From: an uncultured Fodinibius sp.
GTDB lineage: Bacteria > Bacteroidota > Rhodothermia > Balneolales > Balneolaceae
Reading direction: 5' to 3'
Assembly: GCA_913056455.1 (NCBI GenBank)
Contig: CAJXMJ010000001.1
Location: forward strand, 1,054,001 to 1,118,000
DNA: 64,000 nt
In this document: in pieces, positions 1,002 to 35,861 of the stretch
How the letters are laid out: every line of letters starts with the position of its first letter
Position numbering within the stretch: the first letter of the stretch is position 1
Notes under the pieces: generated by a model
What the model was told of the DNA's origin: nothing
What the model saw: the letters and a program-made list of their open reading frames with translations, nothing else
Database searches by the model: none
Position numbers and translations under genes: made by a program

Positions 1002-1844
1002 TCAGTCAACCAGATCGTAGAGAAGTTCAATCTCTTCCGGCCAGCGTTCGGTATTAGGTGTTTCCAAAATCATTGGTATATCATTTAGCCGTTTATCCTT
1101 CATCAACAGCTCAAATCCCTTGATCCCAATTTTACCTTCCCCAATATTATCATGTCGGTCAACTCTGCTCCCACATTCCTTTTTGGAATCATTCAGATGC
1201 ATACCCTTGAGATATTCAAAACCGATTAGCGCCTCGAATTGGTTCCACATTTTATGGTATCCCTTTTCTGTTGATAGGTCATAACCTGCTGCAAAAGCAT
1301 GACAGGTATCGATACATACCCCCACCCTGCTTTTATCATCAACGCCATCAATAATGCGAGCCAAATATTCGAACTTATATCCAACACTGGTGCCCTGACC
1401 AGCCGTATTCTCAATAACTGCTGTCACCCCGTTGGTTTTCTCCAGCGCCCAATTCAGGGATTCCGCATTTCGGTCGAGGCATTCTTCAACGCTTATTTTA
1501 TTTAGATGGTTACCCGGATGAAAGTTCAAAAGCTTTATACCCAACTGCTCGCAGCGTTGTATTTCATCCAAAAAAGCATTTCGGGACTTCTGCAACTGTT
1601 GTTCCTCTGGATGTCCAAGATTAATTAGATAGCTGTCATGCGGCATCACCTGGCCCATTGAATACCCCAAGTCTTGACAACTATTTTTGAACCCCTTGAT
1701 ATTTTCTTTCGTGAGCGGCGGACCTTCCCATCTGCGCTGATTTTTCGTAAATAAAGCAAAGGCTTTAGCTCCTATCTCGTGAGCGCGCTCCGGGACATTT
1801 TCAACACCGCCCGCAGCACTGACATGGGCACCAATATATTTCAT
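1002..1844 (-). CDS. nfo: Deoxyribonuclease IV (endonuclease IV)
   Basis: This is an AP endonuclease of the Nfo/Apn1 family. It cuts the backbone 5' to abasic sites and removes 3' blocking groups in base excision repair. The 280-residue length matches the family. The trinuclear zinc ligands all fall at E. coli-like positions: His69, His109, Glu145, Asp179, His182, His216, Asp229, His231 and Glu261, within [42 protein letters not shown] and ILETP. The ATG start gives [13 protein letters not shown], the usual N-terminus. Two small membrane-protein genes follow on the same strand. Confidence 0.97.
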
Positions 1845-2011: not shown

Positions 2012-5000
2012 CTAAGTACTCACATTATTACTTTTTGAACTGCTTGGAAAAACCAAAGTAAAAGTAGCTCCCTTTCCTTTCCCATCGCTTTTTACTTTGA
2101 TTTCCCCACCCATACTTTGCATGTAGTTGGCACTACTGTGAAGGCCGAAGCCATGCCCCTCATTCTTTGTTGTAAAACCCTGAGTAAATATTTTATCAAT
2201 ATGTTCTTTTTCTATCCCATGACCATTATCAGAAATAGACAGGTGTACTTTACTACCTTCTTGCCATGTTTTTATTTTAATAAGCTTCTCTTCGGGTTCA
2301 TTATCAACCATAGCTTCTTTGGCATTTTTGAAAATGTTAACCAAAATATGGATTAACTGTGTCCGGTGAGCAGTTATTGGATCAATTGGCTTTAAGTCTT
2401 TCTTAATTGTTAGCCCATGGCGTTCAATAGACCCTGATTGTAAAGTCAAAGCATCATCTACCATTTCATCAAGCGAAGCCTTGTCCGCTTCCATGCTTGC
2501 TCCGGCATAACTCTGCTGGGCTGCTATAACCTCACTTATCAAATCTACTTTTTCTGAAAGTCGCTTTGACTGATTCAACATCTTTTGCCGTTCCTTCTTA
2601 ATCGGTTCTTCCAGCTTTAGATAATAGTTAAGTAATTGTTTGCCTTTTGGATTCTCAGCAATAAATTCTTCGATTCGATCGATATTTTCTCTTAATAATT
2701 GATTCGCCTTTGAAAAGCCTTCCACTTTAGATTGCCGTACAGTATCCTCAATTACTGTAGCAGATGTATTAACGCTGTTCAATATATTCCCCACATTATG
2801 CAATACGCCAGTGGCTATGTCGGCCATACCGGCTTTATGTGCCTTTTCAACAAGCTCATCCTTAGTTTCTTCAAGTTCTTTTAATGTGCTTTTTAAATCA
2901 TTGTTTTTCTTATTTAGCTCATCAGTCCGGTCTGCAACCTCTTTTTCAAGTCGTTTGCTGTATTCTTTGATCCCCCGCACTCTTACTCGATAACCCGTAA
3001 TTATAATTCCGGTAATAAAGAGCGCCGACAACAAATAAAACCAAGTGGTACGCCAGAACGGTGGATTGATTATCATTGCCAATGACGTACCCTCTTCGTT
3101 CCAGACCCCATCATTATTTGACGCTTTGACCCTGAAGGTATACTCCCCGGGCGGTAATTCTGTATACGTAACAAAATTTCGATCACCTATATAATTCCAC
3201 TCCTTATCAAATCCTTCCAGTTTATAGGCATATTGATTTTTTTCCGGGATTGTATAGTTCAAAGCAGCAAACTCGAACGAAATAACATTATCAGAATAAG
3301 AAAGGGTAAGTGTATCAGTATAAGTGATAGATTTGTCTAACAGTTTTCGTTCCTCACCATCAACCTCTACACTTTGGTCGATAGGCACTGAATCATTATA
3401 TAGCTGAAAATCAGTTATAACTACAGGGGGAGGATTTGGGTTGCCGGTAAAATCGGAAGGAGAAAACTTATTGAACCCGTTAGTACCTCCCATATAAATG
3501 TCTCCCGATGATGAGGTAAAAGCAGCTCCGGCATTAAACTCATTTCCCTGCAAACCATCTCTTTTGTCAAAAGTGTTAAATGTCATCGCTTCTGAATCCC
3601 AAATTGCTAGACCCAGTGTAGTACCCATATACATATTTCCATTTTCATCTTCCGTAATACCCCAAACGATATCATCGGGGAGACCATCTTTTAGGGACAT
3701 ATATCTTAGTACTTCATGAGTTTCTATATCCAATACATTTGCCCCCATTATAGTACCAACCCAAAGCCTTCCCTTTGCGTCCTCATGTATATCTATAACA
3801 ATACCGGTGTCAAGACTGTGTGGATTTTTGGAAGTATGCGGGAACTTCTTAAAGGTATTTGTTTCAGGCTCATATAAATTCAACCCATTCCGTGTGCCCA
3901 CCCATATTTGTTCCCTGCTGTCAATATATACATCAGATACATAGGATGCACCTAAGCTCTTAGGATCATCGGGATCATGGTTATAATGTACAAAGGTTTC
4001 GGTTTCGGGATTGAGCACATTTAGCCCCCGTCCTCTTGTCCCTATCCAGATATTACCTGTGGAGTCAATATCTACTCCCCATAATGTATTATAGCTTATA
4101 GAATTTTCATCATCCGGATCATGCAAGTATCGCTGTGTGCTTCCTGTCTTCGGATCAAATTTATTAAGCCCCTCAGGAGTGCTCATCCACAAATGCCCAT
4201 GACGGTCAATCTCAATATTGTAAATGCGGTTACTACTAAGTGAATTGGGATTATCGGGATCATGATAAAAGTGGTCAAATTGTTCAGTCTCCGGGTCAAA
4301 CCTATTCAACCCCTTGTCTGTACCTATCCAGATATTACTACTTTCATCCTCAACAAAGTCCCAAATATTATTATCGCTGATACTGTTTTCATCATCCGGG
4401 TAGGTAAAATAGTGTTTAATACCTTTCTGATGATAGCTAAACTTGCTGATCCCATTAGACCAAGAACCTATCCACAAGGTATTATGTCTGTCTTCGTAAA
4501 TACTATTAACACGATTGGACTTCAGGCTTTGATCATCTTTGGGGTCTGCCTTCAACCTGATAAACTCATCCAGATCAGGTTGGTATAAATTTAACCCATT
4601 TTCTGTACCCACCCATAAATTAGACCGACTGTCCTGATAAATAACATTCACGTGGTCATCACTTAGAGAAGTGTTATCATGGGTCTCATTTTGATAAATT
4701 AAAGCCTTTGAGCGATCATTATTGATACGAATCAAGCCGGCTTCGGTACCCACCCACAGATACCCATGTCCTTCATGAATTGAGTTGATTATTTTATTCT
4801 CTAAAATTGGCAATTGGCTACTGACCAATTGTTCTTCTTCTGGATCGAGATGATAAAGACCTCCCCCAAAGGTTCCGGCCCACAAAATACCTTCCTCATC
4901 CCTGTAAACTTCCTGGAAGTTTTGTTTCCCGTCCTTAACTTCTATGTTTTTGAATGTCCCTTTCTGCTTGTTTATAAGCTTATCTAAGCCCTGATCAGTT

Positions 5001-5458
5001 GCAATCCATACCGCGCCATCCGGATCGCACTGGACTGCATTTGCAGAATTATCGCTAAGACTTTCCGGGCCGTCATTTTCATAGAAAACTCTAAACTTCT
5101 CGGTTCTTATATCAAAAAAGGAAAGCCCATTTACAGTACCAATCCAAAGATCACCATCTACATCAATACAAATGTCGGTAACTTGCTTATCACTGAGACT
5201 ATTATTGTCAATCAGATCACTACGATAAACAACCATCTGTTGGCCATCATAGCGATTTAGTCCACCGACAGTGCCAAACCATAAAAACCCCTTATCATCT
5301 TGAACAATAGAATTAACTGTTGCTTGTGACAAGCCATCTTCGAGCCCCAGATGTGTAAACTGATAGGAATCAATCTGAGAAAAAGCAGGTTGCCATAACA
5401 TTAAAAAAAGAGCTCCTTTTAAGCATAGAGCCAACACATATTGCTTTAATCGCTTCAT
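2012..5458 (-). CDS. Two-component propeller sensor histidine kinase
   Basis: This is a membrane sensor kinase of the hybrid two-component-system architecture, 1148 residues. A signal peptide (about residues 1-27) is followed by a periplasmic beta-propeller made of many Reg_prop repeats (pattern LWxGTxxGLN) to about residue 690. A Y_Y_Y domain follows at about 725-795, a transmembrane helix at about 803-823, a coiled coil, and a kinase core. The likely phospho-accepting histidine is near residue 888 in VLHNVGNILNSV. The HATPase_c domain shows ISDNGHGI and GHGFGLHSS. There is no C-terminal receiver or AraC domain, so it must signal to a separate partner; the hybrid kinase upstream on the same strand is a candidate. 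In characterised relatives the propeller senses carbohydrates; the ligand here is unknown. Confidence 0.95.
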   Translation of the reverse strand: MKRLKQYVLALCLKGALFLMLWQPAFSQIDSYQFTHLGLEDGLSQATVNSIVQDDKGFLWFGTVGGLNRYDGQQMVVYRSDLIDNNSLSDKQVTDICIDVDGDLWIGTVNGLSFFDIRTEKFRVFYENDGPESLSDNSANAVQCDPDGAVWIATDQGLDKLINKQKGTFKNIEVKDGKQNFQEVYRDEEGILWAGTFGGGLYHLDPEEEQLVSSQLPILENKIINSIHEGHGYLWVGTEAGLIRINNDRSKALIYQNETHDNTSLSDDHVNVIYQDSRSNLWVGTENGLNLYQPDLDEFIRLKADPKDDQSLKSNRVNSIYEDRHNTLWIGSWSNGISKFSYHQKGIKHYFTYPDDENSISDNNIWDFVEDESSNIWIGTDKGLNRFDPETEQFDHFYHDPDNPNSLSSNRIYNIEIDRHGHLWMSTPEGLNKFDPKTGSTQRYLHDPDDENSISYNTLWGVDIDSTGNIWIGTRGRGLNVLNPETETFVHYNHDPDDPKSLGASYVSDVYIDSREQIWVGTRNGLNLYEPETNTFKKFPHTSKNPHSLDTGIVIDIHEDAKGRLWVGTIMGANVLDIETHEVLRYMSLKDGLPDDIVWGITEDENGNMYMGTTLGLAIWDSEAMTFNTFDKRDGLQGNEFNAGAAFTSSSGDIYMGGTNGFNKFSPSDFTGNPNPPPVVITDFQLYNDSVPIDQSVEVDGEERKLLDKSITYTDTLTLSYSDNVISFEFAALNYTIPEKNQYAYKLEGFDKEWNYIGDRNFVTYTELPPGEYTFRVKASNNDGVWNEEGTSLAMIINPPFWRTTWFYLLSALFITGIIITGYRVRVRGIKEYSKRLEKEVADRTDELNKKNNDLKSTLKELEETKDELVEKAHKAGMADIATGVLHNVGNILNSVNTSATVIEDTVRQSKVEGFSKANQLLRENIDRIEEFIAENPKGKQLLNYYLKLEEPIKKERQKMLNQSKRLSEKVDLISEVIAAQQSYAGASMEADKASLDEMVDDALTLQSGSIERHGLTIKKDLKPIDPITAHRTQLIHILVNIFKNAKEAMVDNEPEEKLIKIKTWQEGSKVHLSISDNGHGIEKEHIDKIFTQGFTTKNEGHGFGLHSSANYMQSMGGEIKVKSDGKGKGATFTLVFPSSSKSNNVST

Positions 5459-7409: not shown

Positions 7410-8265
7410 AAAGCCTCGCACTCCAATTACTGTAATTTATTCCGAACATAGCCACTCCTATTTGGTTTATTCGGTTATCTATAATATAAGCGAATTGGGA
7501 AGTATTAAAAATTCTTAATGTTTGTATTTGGGCCGCTACAATTATCGTATATAATTCATCCAACCTTCAGTTTCTTTTCAATTTATATTTATCCCATCAC
7601 TTTAGAATAACTGCAAAAGTACCAATAGAAAATTGGGGGGGGGAATTGCCACAGAATTGTATCCATAAATCCAATCTTCCAACGAGAATTAAATTCGTAA
7701 GTAACCAGTTTTCAAAAACCAGCTGCACTGGATTATAATTATTTTAGAAATTTTCTATAAGTACATGATAAAAAGTAAATTAAAATACTTTTCTAACATA
7801 ACTATAGAGCCAAAGAAACGTTTAAAATTAGTGCGCACTCTACAAATACTACTGGGCAGTTAAGTTTATAGCGCTTACAAAACAAATACTCCCCATGTGT
7901 AATAGAAAATGCTACAGACACTTCCTGTTTTCTCCTACAGACAGTAACCCTATTAACAATTATGTTTTATACAGACGAAAGCGAGAGAGTTTGACATATT
8001 AAAATTGCACAATCTTATGAATGCTACGGCATAAATACTAAGGTAAGTCCAAATCAATGACCGGAGACTTCGGCTGGAATTGGCCTAAATCAGGCATTTC
8101 AAGTGGTGTGCAACGGTCTATTAATTATCGATATGTAAATATCGAAATTGAGCCAACAGTTGAGGGTGCTTTGAGAAATCGAGGCTGAGATCATACCTCC
8201 AACACTTAATTCGGGTAATTCTGAAATAAGGAAACTGTTGGCTTTTTTTATTGATTCAACTGATT
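7410..8265. other. Gene-free intergenic region with RNA-like structure
   Basis: No convincing coding frame is seen on either strand over about 850 bases between the hybrid kinase start and the end of a P-type ATPase gene. It holds a run of nine G at 7635-7643, short AT-rich palindromes, a hairpin with 6-bp arms and GTAA loop at 8129-8144, and the TPP-riboswitch-like element at 8152-8249 on the plus strand. TTGACA at 7991-7996 could be a -35 box, but no good -10 lies at the expected distance. Confidence 0.7.
8152..8249 (+). promoter_or_regulatory. Orphan TPP-riboswitch-like RNA with terminator-like tail
   Basis: On the plus strand the element shows GGGTGCTTTG (8164-8173), then GGCTGAGATCATACC (8183-8197), the signature of the pyrimidine-sensing arm of the thiamin pyrophosphate aptamer (THI element). 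A P4/P5-like arm follows at 8204-8232 with CTT/AAG pairing and a TTCGG/CTGAA stem. That arm differs from the usual CCTGATC and GCGTAGGGA consensus, including positions known to contact the pyrophosphate. P1 is a perfect 10-bp stem, GCCAACAGTT (8152-8161) with AACTGTTGGC (8233-8242), followed at once by seven T. No plus-strand gene follows for 19 kb. It may be a decayed riboswitch or a stand-alone RNA. Confidence 0.55.
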
Positions 8266-10926
8266 TCAACGTCGATCCAAAAACTTCCACAATTGTCCCA
8301 CCAAAAGAGGAATTCCACTCATAACAAAAACCACTGTCCACCCGGCTAGCGTTGGAGGTGTAACTTTTAGGACATCACTAAAGATCGGGACGTAAACCGC
8401 CATAAATAACAACCCGGTACATAGCAGCAGGGCTCCCCAAACATAGATATTTGTCGTGATCGTATTATCCCAAAACCTGGAATCATTGCTCCGCATGTTA
8501 AAGACGTGCCATAGCTGTGCAAAAGCAAGCGTTAGAAACGAAAGTGTTACAGCTTTATCACCGCTTAAATGCAGATATTCCATCCCAATAAAGAGTGAAC
8601 CTAATACCGATAAGGTGATAATAAAGGCATAACCGGCTATCCCTATCCACTCACCACTACCCAAGATAGGCTGTTCGGGATTGCGCGGTGGCTTTTGCAT
8701 AATTCCTTCTTCCCCCTTACCAACCCCCAACGCCAATGCAGGGAAAACATCAGTCACCAAGTTTAAAAAGAGAATCTGTAGTGGCAAGATAGGCAAAGCA
8801 GTACCAATTATGGTCGCCATAGCAACCACCATTACTTCACTAACATTGCATGACATCAAATAATAAATAAAGCGGCGTATATTATTAAAAATGACGCGCC
8901 CCTGTTCTATTGCACTCACAATGGTAGAAAAAGCATCATCAGTAAGTACCATATCGGAGGCTTCTTGCGCCACCTGAGTTCCCCGCTGACCCATAGCAAT
9001 ACCAATATCGGCCTTTTTAAGAGCCGGTGCATCATTAACGCCGTCACCTGTCATCGCTACAATTTGCCCTTTCTTTTGGAACAGTTCGATAAGATCCAAT
9101 TTTTGATTGGGACTCACACGCGAAAAGACCGATGTGCGATAGATCCGGGTCGCTTCGGTGCTGTCGATATCCAGCTCTGTAATATCGGGCAGATCTCTTC
9201 CATGTATTGCTTGTCGATTATCTAAATCGATGCCTACAGCTTCTGCAATTGACTCGGCTGTTGCCTTTTGATCACCCGTTATCATCACCACTCTGATGCC
9301 GGCCTGCTGACATCGTAAAATTGCAGGTTTTACATCGCTCCGAGGCGGATCACTTAATGCTACGAAGCCAATTAGTGTCAACCCCTCATAGGGATTCCCT
9401 TCCGTCGTTTCGGTTGTTTTAAATGCCAAAGCCAACATGCGCAGCCCTTCCCGACCAAGCTTTAGGTTAAGCTCATTCCACTGTTCTAAATCTTTCTTTT
9501 CAAAAGATTTCACTTCTCCGTCCACCATTACGGAGCTACAGGCATCTAAAACTGCCTCGGGTGCTCCTTTTACACTTACCCGATACCCTTTTTCTTTCTG
9601 TTGATTCCAAGTGGCCATCATTTTTACATCCGCATCGAAAGCTTCTTCACGTACTTCGGGATGTTGTGATAAGAAATCTTCAATATCTATTTCAACCTTT
9701 TTAGCGGCTTCAAGTAAGGCAACTTCCAACGGATCTCCCGTCCCACCCTTTTCTTTATGATGCAACGATGCATTATTACAAAGTACGCCCACCTCCAGTG
9801 CCAACCTCAGATCACTATTATCCACTAGCGCCTGCGCTGACAACGGTATGTCCTGTTCTCCTGACAGATAGATACCGGTGGCCGTCATTTTATTTTCCGT
9901 CAACGTACCGGTTTTATCTGTGCAGATAATACCGGTAGCTCCCAGCGTTTCTACGGATGAGAGCCGGTTAACCAGCGCATTTTTCTTAGCCATTAACCGA
10001 ATCCCCTTAGCCAAAGCTATAGTGGCTACAATGGGCAAGCCCTCAGGAATGGCCGCTACCGCAAGAGCAATGCCCGTTTCAACCATTAAATACAATTCTT
10101 TTCCCGCCCAAATACCCGAGCCAACAACAACAGCAGCAATCAGCAGTGTAATAGCAATCAGTCGATATCCAAGTTTATCCAGCCGCTCTTCAAGTGGAGT
10201 TTGCTCTTGATCGGCTTCTTCCACAAGCGATGAAATTTCTCCCAACTCAGTATCTAATCCGGTTGATATCACAACAGCTTCACCGGATCCGCGAGTAATC
10301 GCAGTTCCTTTATAAAGCATACTACTGCGCTCTGCCAGTACCGTATCAGCGGAAATAGCCTCAGCCTGTTTTGATACCGGTAAACTTTCTCCCGTCAGTG
10401 CTGATTCATCAGCCTGGAGCTTGGATTGCTGAAGGATGCGCAAGTCTGCGGTGATAATATCACCTCCTTCAATAACAACCACATCTCCCGGCACCAATTC
10501 TTCGGCATCAATTTTAATGATTTTGCCCGCCCGGCGGACCCTCGTACTCACTTTTCCCAGCTTAAAAAGAGCTTCCATGGAACGAACCGCACGCAGCTCG
10601 GTGAAAAATCCAATTCCGGTATTTATAGATATAACGGCTATAATAGCCCAGCCGTCCACATATTCTCCCAGCCAAAATGCAAACAGTGCTGCAGCGACTA
10701 AAAGTACGATTATAATACTCTTAAGCTGATCAATCAGAATTCCCAAAATACTTCGCTTCTTGTGCTTGCGAAGCTGGTTGGGGCCATACTTTTGTTGACG
10801 TTTTGCAACTTTTTCGGCTGACAGTCCAGATTCCGAATCAACTTCTAAGGCTTTAAGTACTTCATTAGTATCCAGTGCCCAAGGGGATTTTTCAAAGAAT
10901 GGATTGGCTTCGGCTGATCGGTCCAT
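8266..10926 (-). CDS. P-type cation ATPase, P2A (calcium-pump-like)
   Basis: This is an ATP-driven cation pump of 886 residues in the inner membrane. In order it has an N-terminal cation ATPase domain, the actuator TGES motif (178-181), the M4 motif PEGLP (294-298), the phosphorylation site DKTGTLT (Asp337), and the hinge TGDGVNDAPALK. Residues matching SERCA calcium ligands are present: Glu in PEGLP, Asn and Glu in SCNVSEV (M5), and Asn, Thr and Asp in NLVTDV (M6). Calcium, or manganese as in PMR1 relatives, is therefore plausible. It lies 43 bases downstream of the CheB-like gene on the same strand, probably in one operon. A second, different P-type ATPase lies at 21397-24114. Confidence 0.93.
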   Translation of the reverse strand: MDRSAEANPFFEKSPWALDTNEVLKALEVDSESGLSAEKVAKRQQKYGPNQLRKHKKRSILGILIDQLKSIIIVLLVAAALFAFWLGEYVDGWAIIAVISINTGIGFFTELRAVRSMEALFKLGKVSTRVRRAGKIIKIDAEELVPGDVVVIEGGDIITADLRILQQSKLQADESALTGESLPVSKQAEAISADTVLAERSSMLYKGTAITRGSGEAVVISTGLDTELGEISSLVEEADQEQTPLEERLDKLGYRLIAITLLIAAVVVGSGIWAGKELYLMVETGIALAVAAIPEGLPIVATIALAKGIRLMAKKNALVNRLSSVETLGATGIICTDKTGTLTENKMTATGIYLSGEQDIPLSAQALVDNSDLRLALEVGVLCNNASLHHKEKGGTGDPLEVALLEAAKKVEIDIEDFLSQHPEVREEAFDADVKMMATWNQQKEKGYRVSVKGAPEAVLDACSSVMVDGEVKSFEKKDLEQWNELNLKLGREGLRMLALAFKTTETTEGNPYEGLTLIGFVALSDPPRSDVKPAILRCQQAGIRVVMITGDQKATAESIAEAVGIDLDNRQAIHGRDLPDITELDIDSTEATRIYRTSVFSRVSPNQKLDLIELFQKKGQIVAMTGDGVNDAPALKKADIGIAMGQRGTQVAQEASDMVLTDDAFSTIVSAIEQGRVIFNNIRRFIYYLMSCNVSEVMVVAMATIIGTALPILPLQILFLNLVTDVFPALALGVGKGEEGIMQKPPRNPEQPILGSGEWIGIAGYAFIITLSVLGSLFIGMEYLHLSGDKAVTLSFLTLAFAQLWHVFNMRSNDSRFWDNTITTNIYVWGALLLCTGLLFMAVYVPIFSDVLKVTPPTLAGWTVVFVMSGIPLLVGQLWKFLDRR

Positions 10927-27428: not shown

Positions 27429-28085
27429 ATGTACGAGATAAAACTTCAGTTACCTTTTAATGGCTTTCATATTACCGGCACAATGGTTTTACCTGTGAAG
27501 GCACACTCTTTGGTAATATTTGCCCATGGATGGGGAAATACTTCGGAAAGTCCGCATGAACAAATCATTGCCAAACATTTGCAAAGCGAAGGTATTGGCA
27601 CACTCATGTTTGACCTGCTGGATGTACATGATAAACAGCCAGACCACCTTAAAGATATGAGCCTTTTAACCGAGGGGCTTCTAAACGCTACCCAATGGAT
27701 TAACGGTCATTCACAATACCAAAAACTGCGTATTGCTTACCTGGGAAGTGGAACTGGAGCAGCAGTTGCTATTCAAGCTGCTAATAAATTGCCATCTCAT
27801 TTGGTGAAGGCCATTATTTCAGTAAGTGGACGGCTAGATCTTGTTCGCAAAGAGCTTGCTAGGGTGTCCTGTCCAACTCTTTTAATTGTAGGTGAGCTTG
27901 ACTTCCAAATTGTAAATATTAATCGGCATGCCATAAGGTTTTTAAAGAGACAAACACAGCTGGCCATCATTCCCGGTGCTTCTCATTTATTTGAAGAAGC
28001 CAGGAAACAAAAAGAGGTTGCGCTTATCATCAGCTCATGGCTAAAAAAATACTTGTCTGACAAAGAAGTGAAAATAACGATATAA
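27429..28085 (+). CDS. Dienelactone-hydrolase-like alpha/beta protein lacking the Ser nucleophile
   Basis: The 218-residue protein has the alpha/beta-hydrolase fold of the DLH-type proteins often found in stress clusters: oxyanion region FAHGWGNTSES, acid Asp158 in VGELD and His186 in GASHLFEE. At the nucleophile elbow the usual GxSxG is replaced by GSGTG (106-110), so position 108 is Gly instead of Ser. The neighbouring Ser107 is off register. It may therefore be non-catalytic or use a shifted residue. It is transcribed divergently from the kinase-regulator pair. No signal peptide is seen, so it is cytoplasmic. Confidence 0.88.
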   Translation: MYEIKLQLPFNGFHITGTMVLPVKAHSLVIFAHGWGNTSESPHEQIIAKHLQSEGIGTLMFDLLDVHDKQPDHLKDMSLLTEGLLNATQWINGHSQYQKLRIAYLGSGTGAAVAIQAANKLPSHLVKAIISVSGRLDLVRKELARVSCPTLLIVGELDFQIVNINRHAIRFLKRQTQLAIIPGASHLFEEARKQKEVALIISSWLKKYLSDKEVKITI

Positions 28086-35786: not shown

Positions 35787-35861
35787 TGGGTGCTACTGGA
35801 TTCGAACCAGTGACCTCTACCGTGTCGGGGTAGCGCTCTAAACCAACTGAGCTAAGCACCC
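35787..35861 (-). tRNA. tRNA-Val (anticodon GAC), C at position 33
   Basis: A complete 75-nt cloverleaf is seen on the minus strand: acceptor GGGTGCT/AGCACCC, D-arm GCTC/GAGC, anticodon stem CTACC/GGTAG, T-arm ACTGG/CCAGT with TTCGAAT, and discriminator A. The CCA end is not encoded. The anticodon loop is CCGACAC, which puts GAC (valine) at 34-36 but C at position 33, where U is almost invariant. The tRNA stands alone with its own terminator. Confidence 0.93.

Follow-up and report, generated by a model that had tools for sequence, protein, structure and literature searches.

Riboswitches are almost always cis-leaders of genes, and the question raised by the present locus is what a riboswitch-like RNA might do where no gene follows it. 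The window (the whole stretch of 64,000 nucleotides that was analysed, from an uncultured Fodinibius sp.) had been proposed to carry a TPP-riboswitch-like RNA at 8152-8249 on the plus strand. A covariance scan bears this out: in cmscan the RF00059 model aligned over its full length to this segment with 53.3 bits (E 2.6e-9). Since the gathering score of the family is 54.3, the window copy falls about 1 bit short and is missed at the default Rfam threshold; TPP-like matches that narrowly miss the Rfam threshold can be genuine elements. A tRNA at 35787-35861 (minus strand) is the sole RNA family above its gathering score within the window.

The details that had been read from the sequence also hold. 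P1 is formed by GCCAACAGTT (8152-8161) and AACTGTTGGC (8233-8242), ten perfect pairs followed by T7 (8243-8249). The J3-2 CTGAGA at 8185, which contains the pyrimidine-sensing UGAGA motif, is intact, P4 and P5 have changed bases with P4 of the CUU/AAG type, and the usual GCG near the pyrophosphate reads AAA. The minimum free energy fold of the element is the expected aptamer, P1 to P5 (z = -4.7), and none of 200 shuffles was equally stable. The lack of a downstream plus-strand gene was likewise confirmed: leaving aside ORFs antisense to a longer gene, the next one on the plus strand starts at 27429, 19 kb past the element. As predicted, the RNA points at the 3' end of a minus-strand P-type ATPase gene, of the cation type, which ends at 8266. 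The window element thus does not occupy the 5' UTR of any gene related to thiamine. Elsewhere, the same genome carries two above-threshold TPP riboswitches of the canonical kind, one of which precedes a TonB-dependent receptor gene. The P4 of the window copy differs from that of both. The element is not a one-off, nor does it look like a decayed copy.

Conservation among the aligned orphan elements extends approximately 150 nt upstream of the aptamer. MAFFT alignments of this region were curated through the structure string only, and the structure, a four-way junction with a pseudoknot, was obtained from RNAalifold with hand curation. This domain at 8004-8118, equally conserved and family-defining, had been missed by the original prediction. 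The parts of the RNA are as follows:

8004 to 8118, plus strand: structured RNA domain, a pseudoknotted four-way junction (covariance model R2 matches at 8004-8123, 75.4 bits, E 8e-16, the window copy having been in the training set; covariation with n=14 and n=50; no Rfam match).
8005 to 8011, plus strand: 5' strand of the closing stem, TTGCACA, pairing with 8107-8113 (helix 1 of alignment A2, double changes in 6 of 7 pairs, 96.9% of cells paired).
8012 to 8044, plus strand: second helix, in which 8012-8017 pairs with 8039-8044, and the UACG-tetraloop hairpin that caps it (8021-8032) (double changes in 6 of 6 and 3 of 4 pairs, helices 2 and 3 of A2).
8045 to 8070, plus strand: third helix, AAGTC/GACTT, whose loop holds the pseudoknot strand GACCG (8059-8063) (helix 4 of A2, double changes in 7 of 7 pairs; 4 of 5 in the pseudoknot helix).
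8071 to 8106, plus strand: fourth helix (8071-8076 with 8101-8106) (helix 6 of A2, double changes in 6 of 6 pairs, 71.7% of cells paired, mismatches in the window's own copy).
8107 to 8118, plus strand: 3' strand of the closing stem, TGTGCAA (8107-8113), and second pseudoknot strand, CGGTC (8114-8118) (A2 covariation and sequence).
8126 to 8145, plus strand: linker hairpin between the two modules, TATCGATATGTAAATATCGA (read from the sequence; relatives have a hairpin of different sequence at the same place).
8152 to 8242, plus strand: TPP-aptamer-like module (RF00059 match, covariation in 28 class A aptamers and contact bases; G60, C77 and G78 replaced by A).
8243 to 8249, plus strand: U7 tract, which together with P1 makes an intrinsic-terminator-like 3' end (read from the sequence).

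Pseudoknot included, 29 of the 35 junction pairs show double changes in 14 sequences and 90.6% of the cells are paired, compared with 33-39% when one strand is slid. In 50 sequences of many genera, double changes are found in 32 of 35 pairs, and 84.2% of the cells are paired against 35-44% after sliding. This level of covariation was reached by none of 500 shuffles. The pseudoknot, which lies outside both covariance models, joins the loop of the third helix to the strand 3' of the closing stem; it reads GACCG/CGGTC in the window, and AACCG/CGGTT and AGCCG/CGGCT are found beside GACCG/CGGTC among relatives. Four of its five pairs covary in both sets, with 96.8% (n=14) and 85% (n=50) of the cells paired. 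Rfam searches with the window at E up to 10 and with eight relatives at E up to 1 gave TPP only and no match for the upstream domain. The junction module is a previously uncatalogued structure, absent from Rfam.

In order to follow the element beyond the window, several searches were combined. Among 59 related genomes, a search at the DNA level located it in several of the genus without any covariance model, and RF00059 applied to all 12 genomes of the genus, together with sequence reading, gave 15 orphan elements of common appearance. Two covariance models of the junction domain, R1 and R2, were then used, their E-values being rough. R1 recovered the domain throughout the family. R2 found 81 copies in 49 of the 129 genomes of the order, all of them in Balneolaceae, the family of Fodinibius (49 of 92 genomes), with no match in the 37 genomes of the order's other families; in a phylum sample of 395 genomes the matches were again in Balneolaceae only. 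All 15 Fodinibius orphan elements match R2, and none of 29 loci with TPP matches but without an orphan element does so at E up to 1. Five domain copies outside the training set (in L202-L204) also match R2; RF00059 matches lie just downstream of the junction in L202 and L203, and a TPP-like aptamer is present in L204 too. On this comparison of sequences, the suspected stray riboswitch makes up the 3' module of a conserved RNA, apparently a stand-alone one, some 250 nt long. Within the genus, 11 of 12 genomes have the junction RNA, G006 being the only one without it by R1 or R2. In several genomes two or three copies stand in tandem, 400-1800 nt apart (L103, 5402-6326; L105, 5001-5544; L104, 4782 and a copy 451 nt downstream; L108, 3988-5907).

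The copies fall into two classes. In class A, the TPP-like aptamer (module 2) lies 3' of the junction (module 1). Class B (e.g. L089, L101 and L116) has the same four-way junction and pseudoknot, as seen in A2 and with R2, and differs in that there is no aptamer and U7 directly follows the pseudoknot strand. A few copies (in L083, L103, L107 and L113) combine a class A-type upstream region with the lack of an aptamer. On a tree built from the junction only, which is weakly supported in places, the aptamer label needs 3 changes against a mean of 17 after shuffling, indicating that the aptamer is an old, mostly inherited trait with a few gains or losses. As many copies of the domain are found without the aptamer, it is dispensable to module 1. 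One class A-like copy on the minus strand of L097 (genome G103) has a seemingly degraded aptamer downstream of its domain at 1532-1646, where a TTAAGAGAGAG stretch and a terminator-like hairpin remain. A further TPP-like element, in L064 (genome G009; 1525-1622, plus strand, 52.2 bits), occurs without a junction and is followed by a terminator-like hairpin and no obvious gene.

Covariation in relatives, which had been named as a check on the prediction, was found in the aptamer as well: in 28 class A aptamers 89.8% of the cells are paired, double changes were counted for 19 of 26 pairs, and P1, P2, P3 and P5 covary. P4 is almost always CUU/AAG, too invariant to give covariation evidence; the canonical riboswitches examined in these genomes carry CCU there. 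The published contact bases of TPP are the UGAGA of J3-2 and G60, C77 and G78, the latter three making the pyrophosphate/Mg contacts (PMC3764141). As read by eye from the class A aptamer alignment A3, UGAGA is invariant, and G60, C77 and G78 are kept in most of the 28 sequences. G60 is lost only in the window, L006 and L007 (A in each) and in L008 (U), and these four also lack C77 and G78; G78 alone is also lost in L010 and in one L105 copy. In these four the P5 sequence differs with its pairing retained, and the helices and the terminator are kept. A DNA pattern of the aptamer, searched across all GTDB genomes, gave 81 stretches, mostly in unrelated phyla.

These data bear on whether the window element is a decayed, inactive copy of a canonical TPP riboswitch that has lost its gene, as had been considered. 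Its score just under the gathering cut-off would fit such a history, as would the loss of G60, C77 and G78 in its subclade, where the RF00059 scores are 53.3, 52.4 and 39.1 bits (L007) with no match in L008; other relatives of the same class reach 70.9 (L035) and 67.9 bits (L041). However, compensatory changes maintain P1, P2, P3 and P5, the subclade retains P1 and the U-tract, P4 hardly departs from its CUU/AAG signature, which the canonical riboswitches examined do not share, and the upstream junction module is equally conserved. Because compensatory change in relatives keeps the helices and the terminator, we regard decay as an improbable account. The further proposal of an altered ligand choice may apply to the window's subclade only, most relatives keeping the contacts.

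P1 followed by a U-tract is also present in L006, L007, L008, L010, L041 and L051. In several other members (L053, L060, L062) the immediate U-tract is missing and the apparent end is a separate terminator hairpin, so that the notion of P1 as the terminator is not universal.

The genomic neighbourhood was then considered. The window, L067 and L068 represent the same site beside the ATPase gene, the RNA lying 3' to 3' with it, and L069 shares flanking genes with the window site; other members are located elsewhere. Counting ORFs of 80 aa or more, and with orthologous loci of close relatives included, 18 of 25 class A loci face a convergent next gene; a same-strand gene lies 150-600 nt downstream in a few, and no thiamine gene was found downstream among the neighbours identified. 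Could the element nevertheless be an ordinary cis-acting TPP riboswitch, controlling transcription termination ahead of a distant gene or an unrecognised short ORF? The full set of TPP contacts in most relatives, the presumed ability of P1 or a nearby hairpin to terminate and the few same-strand genes are all compatible with it, but the mostly opposite orientation of the next gene and the absence of thiamine functions among the downstream genes identified speak against it. Moreover, no conserved antiterminator pairing was found, and the junction module was not seen before canonical TPP riboswitches. We therefore hold a cis riboswitch to be unlikely, if marginally less so than decay. At L085 (1501-1660) the junction stands immediately before an ORF start (ATGGCAACAGAT...), and this copy may act in cis.

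It had also been suggested that the RNA acts antisense to the pump message, and a role as antisense RNA or convergent terminator of the P-type ATPase gene would suit the 3' to 3' arrangement at the window site as well as the P-type ATPases near L086, L091, L103 and L113. The RNA, though, stops 17 nt short of the stop codon of the ATPase gene, no U-tract follows the stem on the element's minus strand, and Fodinibius members L008, L041, L010 and L051 adjoin other genes. As a general function this suggestion fails, and we consider it very improbable. What is well supported among the earlier proposals is a free-standing regulatory RNA: the element occurs at several genomic sites, with its own conserved upstream region, usually facing a convergent gene and without a thiamine gene among the identified neighbours.

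Recurrent neighbours of class A are the cation P-type ATPase, an MMPL transporter, a DksA/TraR zinc-finger protein, a phosphoribosyltransferase and a flavodoxin. None of these groups was found beside class B loci with TGTGG boxes, for most of which larger flanks were read. The class A neighbours resemble a stress gene set, which hints at a common stress-type regulon.

Upstream of the window's junction three further features were noted:

7911 to 7939, plus strand: two TACA boxes, GCTACA (7911-7916) and CCTACA (7934-7939), a putative activator site ahead of the presumed promoter of the RNA (sequence and class A motif count).
7968 to 7973, plus strand: TATACA, a putative -10 element, its position fitting the TATA-like elements of other class A copies.
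7991 to 8002, plus strand: recurrent 5' leader motif TTGACATATTAA (TTGACATANTGA in relatives), possibly a single-stranded leader (recurrence in class A-type upstream regions).

A sigma-70 scan gave no full promoter at the putative -10 site. The YTACA-N14-19-YTACA pair stands before 20 of the 30 class A-type copies (mean 0.46 and maximum 2 after shuffling) and before none of 21 class B copies, and the strict TTGAC..TGA form of the leader motif occurs in 14 of the 30. TGTGG[AG]WAA repeats are present upstream of 20 of 21 class B copies and in no class A-type upstream region; a promoter-like TTGAC...TAATTA pair accompanies 15 of the 21. The stricter pattern CYTACA-N16-CYTACA, which the window's own boxes do not fit, had no match in the window's genome, and no regulon was drawn for this reason. 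Upstream regions that differ by class in this way speak for independent transcription units and, together with the mostly convergent next gene, make the RNAs look free-standing rather than like leaders.

We consider it fairly likely, and the best explanation, that the locus encodes a free-standing RNA of some 250 nt built from two modules, in which a junction effector is followed by a TPP-aptamer tail forming the 3' end. The sensor appears to be built into the tail of a regulatory RNA rather than placed before a gene. To the observed modules, their linkage, conservation and distribution, and the lack of an evident gene under cis control, this explanation would add an own promoter, termination, TPP binding and action in trans. 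Transcription would start from a regulated promoter just upstream, module 1 would act as the effector, with a protein or a second RNA as its probable binding partner, and module 2 would, through P1 and U7, also make the 3' end. Since the junction is made before the aptamer, the aptamer cannot decide the synthesis of the junction; it would be free to act on 3'-end formation, stability or folding. In most members, TPP would stabilise P1 and thereby affect the 3'-end formation, stability or activity of an effector already transcribed, and for those with intact contacts a TPP-stabilised P1 is the simplest reading. The pyrophosphate contacts being gone in the window's subclade, module 2 is there most likely a ligand-independent structural terminator, or possibly a sensor of a non-phosphorylated pyrimidine ligand. 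Against the two-module explanation stand the P1 terminator that is not universal, the lack of a competing antiterminator fold and the aptamer-free copies. No switch in which the aptamer P1 competes with the junction was found. One candidate antiterminator, the CAACGGT after the closing stem paired with the 3' strand of P1, was dropped because pairing within the own copy was no longer than across copies (means 6.47 and 6.42).

Compared with known systems, the element shares with the TPP aptamer of RF00059 a full-length model match, P1-P5, the UGAGA of J3-2 and, in most class A members, G60, C77 and G78. It differs by its CUU/AAG P4, the lack of a downstream gene and its position at the 3' end of an independent RNA, and the window copy additionally by its score under the gathering cut-off and its missing pyrophosphate contacts. 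In Listeria, Rli55, AspocR (B12) and SreA (SAM) have a metabolite aptamer within a non-coding regulatory transcript, as here; there, a 5' aptamer decides the synthesis of the effector part, or the terminated leader itself acts (PMC8079631). In contrast to the Rli55/AspocR arrangement, where the aptamer is upstream of the effector, it is 3' of the junction in every class A copy read. The presumed effector would be transcribed first, leaving the aptamer, as a 3' tail, to act only on an effector already made. The HMP-PP (thiS) riboswitch likewise merges a thiamin-related aptamer with an intrinsic terminator (PMC6478431). It is, however, a small unrelated fold upstream of thiamin genes that switches them ON, whereas here the P1 of a full TPP aptamer would be the terminator stem and no gene follows. 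A literature search on TPP-linked non-coding RNAs or Balneola non-coding RNAs found nothing relevant.

More tentatively, and with somewhat more doubt than belief, we propose a new class of metabolite-gated non-coding RNAs. A pseudoknotted four-way-junction effector would have spread as independent copies in Balneolaceae, and one lineage would have gained a TPP aptamer as a 3'-end-forming tail, which would put the stability or activity of an RNA acting in trans under the control of TPP. The window's branch would then have lost the pyrophosphate sensor, leaving a tail that only terminates or that senses a different thiamin-related compound. A well-known aptamer would in this case have been taken up as the tail of a separate structured RNA, undescribed in Rfam, that occurs with and without it. 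The bare RNA, the RNA with an intact aptamer and the RNA with a contact-less aptamer form a natural series on which one can test directly how a non-coding RNA comes under ligand control and how it escapes from it.

The aptamer-free class B RNAs also differ in what precedes them, namely the TGTGG[AG]WAA repeats and a TTGACA...TAATTA pair. In L116 (about 5000-5103) and L089 (about 1410-1501), for example, two or three DnaA-box-like repeats (TGTGGATAAC..TGTGGAAAAGTTGTGGGAAA) stand before this pair, a possible tie to replication control.
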